This document shows, piece after piece, positions 36,892 through 43,176 of a DNA stretch of 64,000 nucleotides. Every line of letters begins with the position of its first letter. Within the stretch, counting starts at the first letter, position 1. The translations under genes were made by a program, and so were the position numbers. Below the pieces are notes generated by a model. It made no database searches. It saw nothing but the letters and a program-made list of their open reading frames with translations, and had not been told where the DNA came from. Source of the stretch: Stenotrophomonas sp. 24(2023) (GTDB lineage Bacteria > Pseudomonadota > Gammaproteobacteria > Xanthomonadales > Xanthomonadaceae); NCBI RefSeq assembly GCF_030913365.1, contig NZ_CP133160.1:806001-870000 (forward strand), read 5' to 3'.

Positions 36892-37830
36892 TCAGCCGCT
36901 GCTGTACGGGCCGGTACCCGGGAAGGTCCGCAGCAATGCACGGGTGATCACCGTCGGGTACACGGTGAAGTGGTCCTCGCCTTCGATCACGCTGGTCTCC
37001 ACCGTGATGCCACGGCGCCCGCGCAGCTGCTGGGCGAAATCGCCGTTGTCACGCAGCAGGTCGTTGCGGGTGAAATAGCGCGGGCCCGGCTTGATGGTCT
37101 CGTAGCTGCCCACCGACAGCAGCACCGTGGTCGGCCGGGTGGGCTGCACGGCGGTGTTCTGCAGGCGCGCGACCAGATGGCCATCGAACCACAGCGACGG
37201 GCTGGACAGGATGTAGGTCTGGAACAGGTCCGGCTGCGTGGTCAGTACATAGGCCCCGAACAACCCGCCATAGGAATGGCCCGCGTAGGCACGCCGTGCC
37301 GGATCGGTGCGGTAACGCGCATCGATGCGCGGCAGCACCTGCGTGGCGAGGAAGTCGCGGTAGTGCCCGGCACCGCCGTACTCGACATCGTCGCTGTACT
37401 GCGCCGGGTCGTTGCGCGGCGGGTTGCTGGGCGTGTAGTCGCGCGAACGGCTGGCCTTGGAGGTCAGGCCCTGCTGCGGCGGCAGGCCCACCAGGATGAA
37501 GTCCTCCAGGTTCACCCCGCGCTGGCCGACCATGTTGCGCACGCTGCGCGCCAGCGGGAAGCTGTACAGCGCATCGGTCACGTACAGCACCGGGTAGCGC
37601 TTTTCCGGGTGCAGCGCATAGTCGGCCGGCAAGGCCACCCACACCGGGTAGTCACGCCCGGCCGGGTCATGGATCACCAGCGCCTCGGTATCGGGCAGCA
37701 CCACGCCCGGCGCGGCCGTGGCCGCCTCTGCGGCCTTGCCCGGGCCGCCACTCTGCAGTGGCGAACTGCAACCGGCCAGCAGCACCGCCGCCAGCACCCA
37801 TCCACGCCGTACAACCTGCATCACCATCAT
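36892..37830 (-). CDS. Alpha/beta-hydrolase lipoprotein, esterase D-like
   Basis: 312 residues; GGAG precedes the ATG by about 11 bases. Lipobox LLAGC with Cys21 gives a lipoprotein. Esterase D-type fold: YPVLYVTDALYSF, nucleophile elbow AGHSYGGLF with Ser186, and a C-terminal GEDHFTVYP with the probable catalytic His. Similar proteins hydrolyse siderophore or carbohydrate esters, but the substrate is unknown. It shares layout with the next gene (37853), and the two lie in the same direction 22 bases apart, likely an operon. An older-looking start 33 codons upstream is not supported. Confidence 0.82.
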   Translation of the reverse strand: MMVMQVVRRGWVLAAVLLAGCSSPLQSGGPGKAAEAATAAPGVVLPDTEALVIHDPAGRDYPVWVALPADYALHPEKRYPVLYVTDALYSFPLARSVRNMVGQRGVNLEDFILVGLPPQQGLTSKASRSRDYTPSNPPRNDPAQYSDDVEYGGAGHYRDFLATQVLPRIDARYRTDPARRAYAGHSYGGLFGAYVLTTQPDLFQTYILSSPSLWFDGHLVARLQNTAVQPTRPTTVLLSVGSYETIKPGPRYFTRNDLLRDNGDFAQQLRGRRGITVETSVIEGEDHFTVYPTVITRALLRTFPGTGPYSSG

Positions 37831-37852
37831 TGTTCCTGTCTCCTGCAACCGC

Positions 37853-38713
37853 TCAGTGCGTGCCGGCATCGGCCGGTACAAACAGCGTGCGCAGTGCCTG
37901 CAGCGCCGCCGGGTGGTAGATCGTCGCATGGGTTTCCTGCGGCAGCGCCAGATGGTTCACCGCCACGGCAGGGGCATCGGCACGCAGGCCGGCCACGAAC
38001 TGCCCGGCCGCACGCGCCAGTTCCGGCTGGCCGCTGCTGGCGATGAACACCTGCGGATGCACGCGGGCAATCGCCGGCGCCGCCTCGCCGAGCTCGGCCA
38101 GCGCCCTGCCACGGTTCCACCACAGGCTCGGGTCCAGCGCGATGTAGCTCTGGAACAGGCCTGGTTCGTGCAGCAGCGTATCGAGCACGAACAGCCCGGC
38201 CAGCGATTCACCGATGATGGCGCGCTCCTCGGTGATGGGATAGCGCTGCTGCACCTGCGGCATCAGTTCGTCACGCAGGAAACGGCGGTAGGCCGCCGCA
38301 CCGCCCACGCGCGGCGCGATCCTGCGGTCTTCGGGGTCATCGGTCGGGCCGGTCATGTCGCGGCGGCGCTCGGTGTTCTCGATGCCCACCAGCAGGAACG
38401 GGCGCATGCTGCCATTGGCCGACAACACCTGCACCAGGCCCGCCACGTGCAGGAAATCCTCCGCGGTGCCACCGTCGGGCATGTACAGCACCGGCAGCGG
38501 CGCATCGGCGGCCAGGCCCCACGGCTGCGGGCGGTACACATTGATGCGACGCGTTTCCCCCAGCACCTTCGATGCCACGGTGAAGGTCTGGCCGATCACC
38601 AGCGGGGTGGCAGCAGGTGCCGCCACTGCCGTCGTCGTGGTCGCAGCAGGGGCCGCAGGCGCGGCCGTCGCCAGCACGGGAAGCAGCAGCAATGGCAACA
38701 ACGGCAGACGCAT
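37853..38713 (-). CDS. Alpha/beta-hydrolase, putative secreted esterase
   Basis: 286 residues from MRLPLLPLLLLPVLATA (signal peptide, followed by an Ala/Thr-rich stretch). Fold motifs: LPVLYMPDGGT, the nucleophile elbow IIGESLAGLF with Ser170, and a C-terminal HATIYHPAALQAL with the putative catalytic His. Closest in kind to siderophore-ester hydrolases (Fes/IroE-like), but the substrate cannot be stated. Upstream partner of the lipoprotein esterase at 36892; divergent from the hydrolase gene at 38852. Confidence 0.82.
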   Translation of the reverse strand: MRLPLLPLLLLPVLATAAPAAPAATTTTAVAAPAATPLVIGQTFTVASKVLGETRRINVYRPQPWGLAADAPLPVLYMPDGGTAEDFLHVAGLVQVLSANGSMRPFLLVGIENTERRRDMTGPTDDPEDRRIAPRVGGAAAYRRFLRDELMPQVQQRYPITEERAIIGESLAGLFVLDTLLHEPGLFQSYIALDPSLWWNRGRALAELGEAAPAIARVHPQVFIASSGQPELARAAGQFVAGLRADAPAVAVNHLALPQETHATIYHPAALQALRTLFVPADAGTH

Positions 38714-38851
38714 CGGACACAGCCCTGTGTGGAAACCAGCAAGCATAGCGGGATGCAGGATCCGGCAGCAGTGCCAGGTGGCACGGCGATGGTGTGTTGC
38801 AGCGCGGAAGCCACAGCGGCATCCACCGGCTATGCTCGCGCCGACGCCCTC

Positions 38852-39961
38852 ATGAATGTGCTGCCCATGCGTACCTCGCCCCTGCGCCCGCTGGCCCTGG
38901 CGCTGCTGCTGTCATTGCCCGGCGCACCGCTGGCCGCACGCACGCCGGCACCGCCAGCACCCCGCGTGCAGACCGGTGACCTGCAAGGCGCACCGTGGCG
39001 CATCGACATGCCGGCCCACTGGAACGGCGAGCTGGTGATGATCGCGCACGGCTTCGAACCCAGCGGCGTGCCACGCCAGACACCGTGGCCTGCCGACCAG
39101 GCGACGCCTGCCCTGCTGGCGGCCGGCTATGCCGTCGCCCAGAGCGGCTATGCCCGGCAGGGCTGGGCGGTCGCCGATGGCATTGCCGATACCGATCGCC
39201 TGCGCGCCCATTTCATCGCCACGCACCCGCGGACGCACAAGACCTGGATCATCGGCTACTCGATGGGCGGCGCCATCGCCATCGGCAGCCTGGAACGCCT
39301 GCCACGGCACTATGACGGCGGCGTCGCGCTGTGCGGGGCCAACCTGCCCGGCCTGACCATCGCCGGGGAAGTGCTCACCACCACCGTCGCGTTCGATTAC
39401 TTTTTCCCCGACACCCCCGGCCTGCCACCGGAAGGCCTGGCCTCACCCCACGCCGCGCCGGTGCCGCAGGGCGAGATGTACCAGGCCATCGACCGTGCGT
39501 TGCAGGCCAGGCCGGACGTCGCACGCCTGCTGGCCACCCGGCTGCAGGTGCAGGAAGACCAGCTGGCCGGTGCCATCAGCCTGCATGCGCTGGTGCTGCG
39601 TGAACTCTCCCAGCGCGTGGGCGGACGCGCGGCAGGCAACCTGGACACGGTCTACACGGGGTTCGGCGATGACGCCGCGTTCAACGCCGGGGTGAAGCGC
39701 TATGCCGCCGATCCCGCCGCGACAACCACCGCACGGCAGACGCTGGACCTGACCGGCGCCCTTCGGCGCCCCCTGGTCCTGCAGTTCAACCACGCCGACC
39801 CGTCCATTCCCGCGCGCTTCGAACCTGTCTACCCGCAGTTGGCAGCGGCTGCCGGTGCCACACCCGCGCCCCGGCGATTGCCCTCGGCCGGCGAAGGGCA
39901 TTGCGGGTTCTCCAGCGAACAGGTCGTGGCCGCCCTGCAGGCGGTGGCAACGATGCGCTGA
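38852..39961 (+). CDS. Alpha/beta-hydrolase, secreted
   Basis: 369 residues; a start at 38867 (MRTSPLRPLALALLLSL) would give the cleaner signal peptide and is equally possible. Elements of the fold: ELVMIAHGFEPSGVP (oxyanion-forming HG), YAVAQSGYARQGWAV, nucleophile elbow IIGYSMGGAIA, and a C-terminal GEGHCGFSSEQ with the catalytic His. It resembles secreted hydrolases of the poly-hydroxyalkanoate or lipase kind only in general. Divergent from the two esterases with a 138-base gap that must hold both promoters. Confidence 0.8.
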   Translation: MNVLPMRTSPLRPLALALLLSLPGAPLAARTPAPPAPRVQTGDLQGAPWRIDMPAHWNGELVMIAHGFEPSGVPRQTPWPADQATPALLAAGYAVAQSGYARQGWAVADGIADTDRLRAHFIATHPRTHKTWIIGYSMGGAIAIGSLERLPRHYDGGVALCGANLPGLTIAGEVLTTTVAFDYFFPDTPGLPPEGLASPHAAPVPQGEMYQAIDRALQARPDVARLLATRLQVQEDQLAGAISLHALVLRELSQRVGGRAAGNLDTVYTGFGDDAAFNAGVKRYAADPAATTTARQTLDLTGALRRPLVLQFNHADPSIPARFEPVYPQLAAAAGATPAPRRLPSAGEGHCGFSSEQVVAALQAVATMR

Positions 39962-39977
39962 ACGCCGCGCACCGGCC

Positions 39978-40523
39978 TCACTGCGCCTGAAGGCAGCGTG
40001 CGTGGCGCTGCTGCTGCCGCTGCCAGACCCCCCAGCACACCGTGTTGGGTTTGCCCTGCACCTGCGTTGAGCAGTCGTAGCCGCCCGCACGCCGCCACAG
40101 CAACAGCGCGTCACAGGCCTGCCGGTAGTCGCCCTGCAGCAGGTGCCGGCGCATGGAAGAGTTGCGCCAGTTGCCGATGCCGTACTGGTAGAGGAAATCC
40201 ACGTAGACGTCGTATTCGTCCTGGCTCAGCGCAACACCCGGCAGCGAAGCCCGGAACTGCTGCTCTTCGCCGGCCAGGTGGGCCTGCACCGTGCGCAGCG
40301 CGCGCACCGGCGTGGTGCGGTCGCCGATCGCCACCGGCGTGCCATCCTCGCGGAACGTGGAGCCGAACCCGTAGGTGGGGCGGTCATTGCGCGTCGGTAC
40401 CACCGCGGTATCGGTATAGCCTTCGTGCTCGACGATGGCGATGAGCCCGGCGGCACTGAGCACCAGCGCCGCTGCCAGGCGCCGGACCGGCAGGCCCCGC
40501 ACCGCTGGCGCCGCGCCGCTCAT
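39978..40523 (-). CDS. Phage-type lysozyme (GH24) with SAR signal-anchor, endolysin
   Basis: 181 residues from MSGAAPAVRG. An N-terminal hydrophobic stretch (RLAAALVLSAAGLIAI) immediately precedes the catalytic-region EHEGYTDTA (Glu34), the layout of SAR endolysins. PTYGFGST, TPVRALRTVQAHL, YVDFLYQYGIGNW and a C-terminal VCWGVW match the pyocin/phage GH24 family. It cuts peptidoglycan after release from the membrane. ATG overlaps the stop of the holin-like gene (ATGA). A longer N-terminus is possible but would start inside the holin gene. Confidence 0.85.
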   Translation of the reverse strand: MSGAAPAVRGLPVRRLAAALVLSAAGLIAIVEHEGYTDTAVVPTRNDRPTYGFGSTFREDGTPVAIGDRTTPVRALRTVQAHLAGEEQQFRASLPGVALSQDEYDVYVDFLYQYGIGNWRNSSMRRHLLQGDYRQACDALLLWRRAGGYDCSTQVQGKPNTVCWGVWQRQQQRHARCLQAQ

Positions 40524-40717
40524 GGCCGCACCTTCTGCCGCCATTCGCGGACCCAGCGCCACCCCAGGTAGCTGATCTGCGCAGCCAGATAGATGATGGT
40601 CAGCACCACCACCAGCCGGTCCAGGTTGATGCCAGCGGCCACCGCGCCGGCGACCGTGACCGGGGGAGCAGCCTTCGCCGCCGCAGCACCAACGGTGCTG
40701 AAGATTTCTTGTTTCAT
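40520..40717 (-). CDS. Small holin-like membrane protein
   Basis: 65 residues, one membrane helix (about 31-50, LDRLVVVLTIIYLAAQISYL) and a charged C-terminus (RWVREWRQKVRP). No holin motif can be proved from such a small protein; the call rests on size, topology and ATGA coupling to the lysozyme. With a SAR endolysin, a small holin (pinholin type) that only collapses the membrane potential would suffice. No Rz/Rz1 spanin pair is visible after the lysozyme. Confidence 0.7.
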   Translation of the reverse strand: MKQEIFSTVGAAAAKAAPPVTVAGAVAAGINLDRLVVVLTIIYLAAQISYLGWRWVREWRQKVRP

Positions 40718-40824
40718 GGGGTATGTGCTCGGTAGAGGCTGCTGGCCACGGGCCGCAGCCGGGGACGATGGCCGGGGTCACCGCCCGCGGCGGCGTGCAT
40801 CTGCACACAGCGCGGGCGTCGGCC

Positions 40825-40851
40825 AAAAAAAAGCCCCGCAGGCTGCGGGGC
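40825..40851 (-). terminator. Leftward intrinsic terminator 1 between the 41009 gene and the holin
   Basis: On the minus strand, GCCCCGCAGCCTGCGGGGC is followed by eight T. The stem is at 40833-40851 and the T tract at 40825-40832. It stands between the regulatory genes and the lysis genes, where lambda-like phages place a terminator that an antiterminator overcomes. Confidence 0.85.
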
Positions 40852-40893
40852 GGACGACAACGACAATGGCGGCAGCGCCATCGCGTGGACAAC

Positions 40894-40920
40894 AAAAAAG
40901 CCCCCGGGAGCACCGGGGGC
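40894..40920 (-). terminator. Leftward intrinsic terminator 2 between the 41009 gene and the holin
   Basis: On the minus strand GCCCCCGGTGCTCCCGGGGGC is followed by TTTTTT. Stem 40900-40920, T tract 40894-40899. Second terminator in tandem with the one at 40825-40851. Confidence 0.85.
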
Positions 40921-41008
40921 TTCTATGTCATCGTGGTAGTCAATCTACGCAGGGGGTGTGCACCTGTCAACGCGATCCGGCCGCTGTGGCGTCCCCAGGA
41001 AGGCGACG

Positions 41009-41437
41009 TCACGCCGCCTGGGCGATGCCCTCCAGCCACCCCCTCACGCGCTGGAAGCCCAGCTCGACCAGGCTCAGGTAATGGCGGTTGGACACCGGGC
41101 GATGCCCGGCGTTGGCCAGCAGCAGGTTGGCCGTTTCAAAGCGTTCGATCTTGCGGCGGCCACGCCCGCAGTAATAGCCGCGCAGCGCGCAGGCCATGGC
41201 CGGGGTATCGCGTGCGATCGCCGCCACGATGTCTTCCATCTGCTGGGCCAGCATATCGGTTTCCACCGGCTTGTAGCCCTGTCCGCGGCCGGGCATGTGC
41301 CCGCCGTTGTCGATCAGCACGGCCAGCAGGCTGCGCGACTGGAAGCCCAGGTATTCGCAGTCACGGTGCAGGGCGAACGCTTCCCCCCAGTGTTCCAGGC
41401 GCGAACGGACATATTCGGCGAAGGTATCAAGCTGCAT
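41009..41437 (-). CDS. Phage-like regulatory protein, possible late-gene antiterminator
   Basis: 142 residues from MQLDTFAEYV, whose ATG has GGAGG about 8 bases upstream; a start at 41512 overlaps the preceding gene by 4 bases but lacks a ribosome-binding site. The best-preserved part is a C-terminal CALRGYYCGRGRRKIERFE then NRHYLSLVELGFQRVRGWL, helix-rich and like small phage late regulators (Q or ArpU-type), which is only suggestive. It is followed by two terminators and then the lysis genes, an arrangement expected for an antiterminator. I cannot name its family. Confidence 0.5.
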   Translation of the reverse strand: MQLDTFAEYVRSRLEHWGEAFALHRDCEYLGFQSRSLLAVLIDNGGHMPGRGQGYKPVETDMLAQQMEDIVAAIARDTPAMACALRGYYCGRGRRKIERFETANLLLANAGHRPVSNRHYLSLVELGFQRVRGWLEGIAQAA

Positions 41438-41508
41438 GGCAAAGGCCTCCTGGGCAGGACGAGGGAGCACCGGCGCGGTAACGCCGGGGGCAACGGAGCG
41501 GGACGGGG

Positions 41509-41769
41509 TCATGGGGAAGACGGCGGCCGGACGGCAGGCGGCGATGGCGCGGGGCCGAACACATCCGGCCGCAGTTCCTCGCGGGCAACCGCGCCGGCGG
41601 TTTCCAGTTCAATGCGACGGCACAGGCGCGCACCGGGCAGCTTGTGGCCGCGGGCGATCAGGTAGAGGGTGCGCGGCGCGCAGCCGGTACGGCCGGCAAC
41701 ACGGCGCAGGACGGGACAGCTGGGGGTGCCATAGCCCCCTTGTGAAATGGCGTAGTCGATGAGGTTCAT
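41509..41769 (-). CDS. Cro/YdaS-like phage transcriptional regulator
   Basis: 86 residues. MNLIDYAISQGG leads into a helix-turn-helix (LRRVAGRTGCAPRTLYLIARG) and ends with IELETAGAVAREELRPDVF, the ELT/GAV-RPD ending of YdaS/Cro-type regulators. It is transcribed divergently from the CI-like gene at 41854, with 84 bases between the starts, so they share operators. First gene of the leftward operon that leads to the lysis genes. Confidence 0.8.
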   Translation of the reverse strand: MNLIDYAISQGGYGTPSCPVLRRVAGRTGCAPRTLYLIARGHKLPGARLCRRIELETAGAVAREELRPDVFGPAPSPPAVRPPSSP

Positions 41770-41777
41770 GGCTCCAC

Positions 41778-41836
41778 ATTACCGTTACGGTTATATGAAG
41801 TCAATACCGTTTTGGTCATTTGCTGGAATGGTAATG
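41778..41836. promoter_or_regulatory. Operators between the Cro-like and CI-like genes
   Basis: Three related sites: ATTACCGTTACGGTTAT (41778-41794), AATACCGTTTTGGTCATT (41803-41820) and GGAATGGTAATG (41825-41836, reverse reading CATTACC). The first is a near-perfect ACCG-TTA-CGGT inverted repeat. On the minus strand TTGACT and, 17 bases later, TAATGT make a plausible promoter for the leftward operon that overlaps sites 1 and 2. Confidence 0.6.
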
Positions 41837-41853
41837 CGCGCCACCATCTACCC

Positions 41854-42360
41854 ATGGACGCCAGCACCGCCCGCACCCAGAACATGCGCCTCCGTGTCGC
41901 CGCCGCCGGCGGCCCGGCCGAATGGGCACGCCTGTACGGCGGCAGCCGCTGGGCGCAGCCCCAGGTCAGCCAATGGATTTCAGAGACCAACCCCAAGAGC
42001 ATCGGCCATCGCCTCGCACGCGATCTCGAAGCGGCCATGCACCTTGCCCACGGCACACTGGACCGTTCCGAAAACGGTGACGAGATGTCGTTTCCGTCTC
42101 AGCCTGCGGGATTGGATTTCGAGAAGATAAGCGCTGCGGTCAAGGTGCTTTCGCACTACCTGGAACTGGTTGGCGATCCACTGGAATGGATCTACGACCC
42201 GGTACTTCTGGAGACCGCCTACCTGGTCGTGGACCAGTTCGGCGAGCCTGCAGCGCCGGACAACGTCCTCGACATGACCAAGCTTCTCGCAAAACGGATC
42301 AGGGGGACGAAGGATGACGCAGACACGGCTCGAGGAACTCGCACAGCGGTTGGCCGCTAG
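41854..42360 (+). CDS. CI-like phage repressor, short form without peptidase domain
   Basis: 168 residues from MDASTARTQN. An N-terminal HTH region (LYGGSRWAQPQVSQWISETNP, SIGHRLARDLEAAM) resembles phage repressors. The rest (about 75-168) has no LexA/S24 Ser-Lys autoprotease motif, so RecA-driven self-cleavage is not expected. Divergent from the Cro-like gene over shared operators. The next gene overlaps its 3' end by 47 bases. It would keep the leftward lysis operon shut. Confidence 0.7.
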   Translation: MDASTARTQNMRLRVAAAGGPAEWARLYGGSRWAQPQVSQWISETNPKSIGHRLARDLEAAMHLAHGTLDRSENGDEMSFPSQPAGLDFEKISAAVKVLSHYLELVGDPLEWIYDPVLLETAYLVVDQFGEPAAPDNVLDMTKLLAKRIRGTKDDADTARGTRTAVGR

Positions 42361-42676
42361 GACCCAGGAGCTGCGCTCCGGGCGCAGCACGCGGCCTGCC
42401 CTGCGCGGTGTTGCCGAAGCACCTGCCAGGGCACCACACCGCATGGATGCGATCATGCGCGAATGGCATTGCCGCATGATCCGCAATGTACGACGACGCT
42501 GGGGCGAACCGATGCAGCACCTGATCGACCAGGCCTGCTGCGGCGTGAGCGATATCGAGCAGCTTCCGGATGAGGGGCTGATCCAGCTGCACAAGGACAT
42601 GGAGCGTGCGGAAGAGTGCATCCGCGAAGGCATCTCCTTCCACGATGCGGGCCTGCTGCGCGGGCATTTCAGCTGA
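42314..42676 (+). CDS. Small protein of unknown function after the CI-like gene
   Basis: 120 residues, rich in Arg and Glu, no signal or membrane segment. Features: MREWHCRMIRNVRRRWG and DIEQLPDEGLIQLHKDMERAEECIREGISF (helical, acidic C-terminus). It overlaps the CI-like gene by 47 bases in another frame and is likely co-transcribed with it. I do not recognise a family; a repressor partner or antirepressor is possible only by position. Confidence 0.6.
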   Translation: MTQTRLEELAQRLAARTQELRSGRSTRPALRGVAEAPARAPHRMDAIMREWHCRMIRNVRRRWGEPMQHLIDQACCGVSDIEQLPDEGLIQLHKDMERAEECIREGISFHDAGLLRGHFS

Positions 42677-42723
42677 GGCCGCGCGCCGGACCCGCCCCTG
42701 CGGCCATGTCCGGCGGCCAGAAT

Positions 42724-42788
42724 ATTACCTTAAAGCGAATATTTTTTATTAAAAAGGTAATGGAATGGGTGCACCCGAGGGTGCGCCC
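42724..42788. repeat. AT-rich hairpin and GC hairpin at the end of the phage-like cassette
   Basis: ATTACCTT (42724-42731) and AAGGTAAT (42754-42761) enclose a run of A and T with TTTTTT, unusual in this GC-rich DNA; right after it is the palindrome GGGTGCACCC (42767-42776) pairing with GGGTGCGCCC (42779-42788). The region lies between two convergent genes, so it may be a bidirectional terminator. The ATTACC/GGTAAT arms resemble the operators at 41778-41836. Confidence 0.55.
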
Positions 42789-42795
42789 AATCCGA

Positions 42796-43176
42796 TCAGC
42801 CCAGCAGATGCACGCCACATAGCTTGTTGCCGTCGGGATCGCGCACATAGGCCAGGTACAACCGGCGCCCCGGCGCAGCGCGCACACCCGGCGGGTCTTC
42901 AATGGCCGTGCCCCCCTGGTCCACCGCAGCCTGTTGCCAGGCATCGACCTGCTGTGGCGTGGCGATGGTGAAACCGATGGTGCCACCGTTGGCATGGCAG
43001 GCCTGCTGGCCATCGATGGGCAACGTCACCACGAACATGCGGCCCTCCTTGATGTAGACCAAGCGCCCCTTCTCATCAACGGTACCGGCTGGCCCGCCCA
43101 GCGTGGCGAACAGTGCGTCATAGAAGCGGCGCGAACGCTCCAGGTCATTGGACCCCACGACAACGTGGCTGAACAT
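42796..43176 (-). CDS. VOC-family (glyoxalase/bleomycin-resistance-like) protein
   Basis: 126 residues. One VOC domain: MFSHVVVGSNDLERSRRFYDALF with a metal-ligand His at position 4, and a C-terminal RDPDGNKLCGVHLLG. It could be a small dioxygenase, lyase or resistance-type protein; the second half keeps the typical YVRDPDGN motif. Not obviously linked to the phage-like genes. The 157-base gap after it, before tRNA-Lys, holds only a terminator. Confidence 0.85.
   Translation of the reverse strand: MFSHVVVGSNDLERSRRFYDALFATLGGPAGTVDEKGRLVYIKEGRMFVVTLPIDGQQACHANGGTIGFTIATPQQVDAWQQAAVDQGGTAIEDPPGVRAAPGRRLYLAYVRDPDGNKLCGVHLLG

Follow-up and report, generated by a model that had tools for sequence, protein, structure and literature searches.

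Maltocin, a tailocin of Stenotrophomonas maltophilia, is an R-type particle. It is different from the system described here and has its own endolysin, according to the accessible part of its report (PMC13393414). In Pseudomonas aeruginosa, the antiterminator AlpA has two targets of antitermination, namely a lysis cassette and a separate operon, as stated in the available text of another report (PMC7969949). Here, we describe a phage-like cassette at 39978..42676 of a 64,000-nucleotide stretch (the window, to which the five-digit positions refer) from the chromosome of Stenotrophomonas sp. 24(2023) (NZ_CP133160.1, 806,001 to 870,000). A preliminary description of the window had presented it as a free-standing control and lysis cassette without virion genes, either a remnant or a domesticated system for controlled autolysis. 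We found that its promoter element also stands before three unlinked sets of phage-tail genes. In our judgment, the cassette quite probably serves as the centre for control and lysis in a regulon that is domesticated, dispersed, and similar to an F-type tailocin.

The promoter element and its four chromosomal copies

A scan of 39900-42800 found a sole sigma-70-like promoter (0.3 expected). This pR'-like promoter, TTGACA-17-TAGATT, lies at 40942..40970 on the minus strand, between the gene of a predicted Q-type antiterminator (hereafter Q) and two terminators. The putative Q-binding element GGTGCACACC (40955..40964, minus strand) is placed between its −35 and −10 boxes, and the presumed sigma-dependent pause element ACGATGACATAGAAGCC, a −10-like sequence in the early-transcribed region, follows at 40918..40934 (minus strand). 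The full order is TTGACA-GGTGCACACC-N20-ACGATGACATAGAAGCC-terminator, and in the cassette (site A) it stands between Q and the holin gene. Together with the preceding C, ACGATGACATAGAAGCC contains CACGAT, which is the hexamer reported as the AlpA pause element in the accessible part of the source (PMC9371919). The hexamer CACGAT, a putative pause element, is present at three of the four sites of the genome, and site D has AACGAT.

The 4,519,927-bp chromosome contains exactly four zero-mismatch copies of ACGATGACATAGAAGCC. One, at 846918(-), is that of the cassette, and the other three, at 526970(-), 2162211(+), and 3567862(+), precede tail genes (loci B, C, and D). All four copies have TTGACA or TTGACG followed by GGTGCACACC upstream at equal spacing, and at all four sites a hairpin with a T run, that is, a terminator, lies between the promoter and the first gene. 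The four loci are at least 0.3 Mb apart. By coordinates, the distance from motif to first gene is ~0.2 kb at A, B, and C and ~0.45 kb at D. Sites A, B, and C have only ~80-100 bp of the element in common, but the regions at B and D match over 299 bp (77%). Thus, the control region of D is a copy of that of B, or the reverse. These results also explain, from outside the window, why lysis control was seen without virion genes: the cassette is free-standing locally, but the same element precedes three distant tail-gene sets.

Distribution in the genus

The distribution was investigated in 91 genomes of the genus, seven of which have the cassette. Q homologues (E ≤ 0.001) were found in 13 genomes, including the seven cassette genomes, G017, G024, G038, and G040 (strong matches), G066 (three fragments), and G025 (a weak match). 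The motif with at most one mismatch was found in 11 genomes, and all 10 that remain after removal of G028 have Q. The match in G028 was dropped because it falls within a gene and has neither a promoter nor a terminator. For L005, the element site was not found.

The pattern TTGACNGGTGCACACC occurs in exactly 7/91 genomes, which are the cassette genomes, and its reversed pattern occurs in none of the 91. There are 14 sites (one at A, five at B, seven at C, and one at D), so that 13 are at tail genes and one is at lysis genes. In addition, GGTGCACACC is identical at 14/14 of these non-prophage sites, and among the 91 genomes TTGACN followed by GGTGCACACC is present only in the seven. The major tail protein of operon C is found in exactly the same seven genomes as the cassette. 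The chance of this match is 1 in 8.1 billion (C(91,7)) if the seven genomes are independent, a figure that shared ancestry overstates.

The tail tube of locus B is less restricted. It was found in five of the seven cassette genomes, and also once in G090 and twice in G086, which have neither Q nor the site. In G090, the B-type tube comes after the genes of a major head protein and a connector, as in a whole phage. One copy in G086 follows a connector gene. Before the other (L146, contig 7) stand a phrog_7 endolysin gene and two small genes, and no head gene was seen there. These B-type genes may form a compact F-type tail cluster that is complete in itself and has no Q site.

A queC tree of 23 genomes, six with the cassette (G022 was not placed), requires three changes of the cassette label. 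Therefore, the joint presence of these unlinked loci has probably outlasted several gains or losses, with the caution that queC alone is a weak species tree. Finally, a search with the repressor of the cassette against 395 genomes of the family gave 11 matches, of which only those in G000 and G036 were full-length.

The antiterminator and its recognition site

The preliminary description had proposed a late regulator in the open reading frame (ORF) that starts at 41512. This ORF has 25 extra N-terminal residues, and the homologues align from Met26. Thus, the start is probably 41437, and Q (41009..41437, minus strand) is a protein of 142 aa. Its predicted structure is a fold with an N-terminal ring segment and a C-terminal helix-turn-helix (HTH), as seen with VIA-align of Foldseek-ranked chains. 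The assignment of the 41009 gene to the Q/AlpA class of antiterminators is supported by this predicted fold, and antitermination itself is a predicted activity. The Q profile found no antiterminator in the PDB and one unrelated row at E 0.46, and no Pfam or NCBIfam family matched at E 1.

To describe recognition, we used 28 Q sequences (21 from IMG/VR, four from prophages of the genus, and three from cassettes). A site was present near Q in 26 of them: 15 of class RGTGNNCACC, nine of class RGTGNCACC, and two others. Fourteen Q residues separate the two element classes without overlap, and 13 of these lie in the region of the C-terminal helix (residues 115-136). In AlpA, this region is the part that binds its element, as described in the available portion of the report (PMC9371919). 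The Q of the window falls into the class whose element stands before the tail operons. The element class covaries with the Q C-terminus, and the role of the element in binding is putative.

The pattern TTGACNGGTGCACACC was also found in 68 IMG/VR contigs. Among the 25 with a whole site, 14 have it at tail operons, nine have Q upstream, and two have neither; the other 43 have no whole site by the pattern used and were counted as chance. In nine phage contigs, Q homologues 64-72% identical to that of the window have TTGACNGGTGCACACC as their own site. Two further contigs are mentioned here for their arrangement. In L075 (Cyanophage Cy-LDV1), a Q homologue with 43% identity is followed by a different promoter/terminator-like stretch and by spanin/endolysin genes. 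In L203 (IMG/VR), Q and its site stand before sequence related to the L and J tail genes found in operons C and D, which may be a further tip module that was captured.

Tail loci

Twenty-two proteins of loci B, C, and D were scanned against PHROGs, and the other tail genes were named by likeness or position. Locus B includes the tail tube, a chaperone, the tape measure, minor tail proteins, and a central fibre J of 2187 aa. Locus C includes two head-tail connectors, a tail terminator, the major tail protein, chaperones, the tape measure, M, fibres, L, K, I, and J. Locus D includes a fibre, L, K, I, a J of 1152 aa that is 64% identical to the J of C, and fibre-like genes, and no tube or tape measure was seen in it. 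The families among the 22 scanned proteins (major tail, chaperone, tape measure, minor tail, and J) are of the non-contractile siphophage type, and no sheath family is among their matches.

The tape-measure frame of operon C is open in 7/7 cassette genomes, with 454 aa in this strain and 406 to 911 aa, stop to stop, elsewhere. Because these lengths differ, the tail lengths probably differ among the genomes as well. For instance, the frame in G088 (L058) has 911 aa vs 406-481 in the five others measured stop to stop, which suggests a tail about twice as long. Among 13 genes of operon C (J not included), the ratio of nonsynonymous to synonymous polymorphism (pN/pS) was 0.07-0.35 in 12 and 0.51 in one fibre gene.

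Organization and conservation of the cassette

Leftward, the cassette contains a Cro/YdaS-like gene, Q, the promoter, two terminators, the holin gene, and the gene of a signal-anchor-release (SAR) type endolysin; rightward, it contains the repressor gene and then the overlapping orf120. The endolysin, a lysozyme (39978..40523, minus strand), matches PF00959 (E 1.8e-17) and phrog_7 endolysin (E 6.5e-28), and its identity to phage SAR endolysins is at most 57.7%. The holin (40520..40717, minus strand) matches phrog_920 holin (E 3.3e-19), with PF10746 under its cut-off. A scan placed the first intrinsic terminator at 40896..40924 (fold z -3.4) and the second at 40833..40851 (fold z -2.6), both on the minus strand, among five terminator-like sites on both strands (1.4 +/- 1.3 in shuffles). 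The Cro/YdaS-like regulator (41509..41769, minus strand) matches phrog_35 (E 4.9e-10), with YdaS PF15943 under its cut-off.

Between the divergent cro and repressor genes are two operators of the form ACC-N5-GGT, ACCGTTACGGT at 41781..41791 and ACCGTTTTGGT at 41806..41816, neither assigned to a strand. The first fits this form in 6/7 cassette genomes and the second is identical in 7/7; G049 fits at the second operator only. The HTH repressor (41854..42360, plus strand) is of the phrog_12107 type (E 9.6e-21) and has 168 aa in 7/7 genomes. Pfam reports no peptidase domain in it, so that the earlier name of CI-like holds for its role only. The protein of orf120 (42314..42676, plus strand) matches the function-unknown family phrog_27415 (E 5e-32). 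A stretch of orf120 has a 37% identical counterpart under gp43/gp44 of Stenotrophomonas phage S1, and one of these two is annotated as a transcriptional repressor. No virion gene was seen in the cassette. No cassette protein of the six matched in PADLOC, and no integrase, replication, or head gene was seen among them or in the ORF list from the esterase genes to tRNA-Lys.

Thus, all elements of the cassette that had been listed in the preliminary description (lysozyme, holin, terminators, late regulator, Cro-like gene, repressor, small gene, and operators) are present and intact. The control logic of a phage late operon is supported by the Q-class fold and by the promoter with its tandem terminators.

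In 7/7 genomes, the cassette is at the same site, with esterase genes on one side and queC or tRNA-Lys on the other. In 17/17 relatives without the cassette, no piece of any cassette gene was found in the 8.3-8.6 kb examined on that side of queC, and the esterase flank was reached in eight of the 17. No internal stop occurs in the aligned parts of the cassette genes in any of the seven genomes. The mean pN/pS (21 pairs) was 0.115 for Q, the lowest in the cassette, 0.128 for the endolysin, 0.137 for cro, 0.144 for the holin, 0.144 for orf120, and 0.190 for the repressor. The cassette genes are therefore under purifying selection. With the open frames, the common site, and the absence of remnants on that side of queC in the 17 relatives examined, this supports the earlier suggestion of a domesticated system for controlled lysis.

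The lysis genes, which are unlinked to the tails, include holin and SAR endolysin in 7/7 genomes and an Rz spanin in 6/7. In this strain, the place that Rz has in the other six genomes is occupied by a 364-aa esterase-like gene (38867-39961, plus strand), which was not found at the site in the six other cassette genomes or in 10 relatives searched. In addition, three adjacent esterase/hydrolase-like genes lie beside the cassette (36892-39961), and two of them also occur, conserved, at this place in other genomes.

Proposed mechanism

We propose that in the resting state the repressor would bind the ACC-N5-GGT operators and silence the leftward cro-Q promoter, and that the pR'-like promoters at the four loci would fire and stop at the intrinsic terminators just downstream. 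Upon de-repression, Q would be made, bind GGTGCACACC between −35 and −10, and load onto RNA polymerase during its pause at the CACGAT-like element, which would make the polymerase terminator-resistant. In this strain, Q acting in trans would open the lysis genes (A) and the three unlinked tail loci, with B and C as nearly complete non-contractile tail sets and D as an alternative tail-tip/fibre module. The tails would assemble without heads, and the holin and SAR endolysin would burst the cell and release the particles, which may have an antibacterial role. We infer the steps before and after Q loading from the biology of lambda, phage 21, and AlpA.

A broader proposal, which we hold with less confidence but still favour, is that of a chromosomal late regulon without a phage, in which one captured Q fires several unlinked, stably kept tail operons through copied loading sites. 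Copying of the site (B to D) would let the host add tail tips, so that the arsenal would be modular and dispersed but share one release switch. If these proposals are true, the reach of Q/AlpA antitermination, so far phage late genes and a cell-death cassette, widens to the coordinated control of dispersed phage-tail particles, and the regulon is a testable case of a phage regulatory circuit taken over by a bacterium. They would also predict that members of the S. maltophilia group make F-type particles that have gone unrecognised, and the loading site would be a short signature for finding further such regulons.

Alternative explanations

All parts of the system are phage-derived, Q homologues occur in prophages with terminase genes, and the G090 tail stands behind a head protein and a connector. 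These facts would fit an ordinary prophage remnant, with lysis and regulatory genes here, tail fragments elsewhere, and no present function. However, pN/pS of 0.115-0.19, the lack of internal stops in seven genomes, the invariance of GGTGCACACC at all 14 sites, and the absence of partial remnants in the 17 relatives examined speak against a simple remnant, which we regard as unlikely. Furthermore, lambdoid phages have one late promoter. Mere scattering of such a phage thus leaves the separate element copies before three tail-gene sets unexplained, and the control regions of B and D represent a duplication. Slightly less probable again is an autolysis device, in which the cassette mainly lyses a few cells for release of DNA, vesicles, or bacteriocins and the tails are incidental. 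It is favoured by the six genomes that retain holin, endolysin, and Rz and in which no terminator is visible between Q and the lysis genes. On this explanation, Q would be dispensable in those six genomes, where TTGACNGGTGCACACC is found only at tail operons, yet Q has the lowest pN/pS. This combination strengthens action in trans.

A gene transfer agent (GTA), in which the tails and heads encoded elsewhere package host DNA, is very improbable. The connector genes of operon C, a weak match of the lysozyme to BgtA (29.9 bits vs a cut-off of 315), and the accessible description of a Caulobacter GTA with antitermination of a domesticated virion cluster (PMC11150451) would agree with it. Against it, the HK97-type capsid family PF05065 was found in 0/7 cassette genomes (4/14 named genomes as a control), and the portal family PF04860 in two of the seven (G022 and G049) only inside P2-like prophages; the genome-wide search covered these two families and not terminase or other capsid folds. 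In the sequence read behind the 14 sites, no capsid or packaging gene was seen. The least probable explanation is tail piracy, with tail operons that are borrowed by passing phages or satellites, or were acquired from them, and with Q mimicking the late regulator of an infecting phage. Since the Q homologues of the nine phage contigs have TTGACNGGTGCACACC as their site, the Q of an infecting phage could fire these operons, but the cells keep their own Q in 7/7 genomes with operon C.

Several results also weigh against the tailocin-like regulon that we prefer. The connectors Ad1 and Hc1 are kept in operon C, and the cassette of this strain has no Rz spanin. In the other six genomes, the gap between Q and holin has no site and no visible terminator; de-repression alone would express their lysis genes, which weakens the timing of lysis by Q as a general rule. 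In addition, P2-like prophages lie between the cassette and tRNA-Lys in G022 and G049 (L076-L079), with terminase, major head protein, and endolysin genes confirmed in G049 and an endolysin gene in G022. Virion genes at this site in close strains had been named in the preliminary description as evidence against its reading, which these prophages provide only superficially: they have their own lysis genes and were not seen at the other five sites, where the cassette is the same. Thus, they were treated as later insertions.

Comparison with known systems

Dispersed tail operons under the control of a Q-type antiterminator were not found in the literature on tailocins, lysis cassettes, gene transfer agents, antitermination, and Stenotrophomonas/Xanthomonas, as judged from the listed titles and the starts of abstracts, with most subscription papers and preprints outside the search. 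Maltocin was the only Stenotrophomonas tailocin among the papers listed. By analogy, AlpA and GafZ are the mechanistic precedents. No sequence match was found to the alp system (AlpR-AlpA-alpBCDE), and the AlpA binding element, GGGACG, is different from the element here. Furthermore, AlpR self-cleaves, whereas the repressor here has no reported peptidase domain, and the described targets of the alp system are not phage-tail operons. The Q of phage 21 and the lambdoid late antiterminators serve one late operon, whereas the Q described here would act at dispersed chromosomal operons. Caulobacter GafZ resembles the predicted Q in that it is an antiterminator, has its element placed between the −35 and −10 boxes, as is presumed here, and controls domesticated virion genes. 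However, in the available text of the report it has one target promoter and acts with GafY and IHF, and its particles package DNA (PMC11150451).

As to the particles, F-type tailocins such as the F-pyocins combine non-contractile siphophage tail genes without heads with lysis genes, and the tail and lysis genes here would form a similar set. Rhizoviticin is a further example, and as far as its accessible description goes, its tail, lysis, and regulatory genes are in one prophage-like region, whereas here they are unlinked and probably gated by Q (PMC10811719). A further likeness is that of Pseudomonas chlororaphis, in which two tailocins are reported with one lysis cassette, as in the present case several particles would share one; both of those tailocins are in one cluster in the part of the review available, whereas the four loci here are dispersed over the chromosome (PMC12090994).

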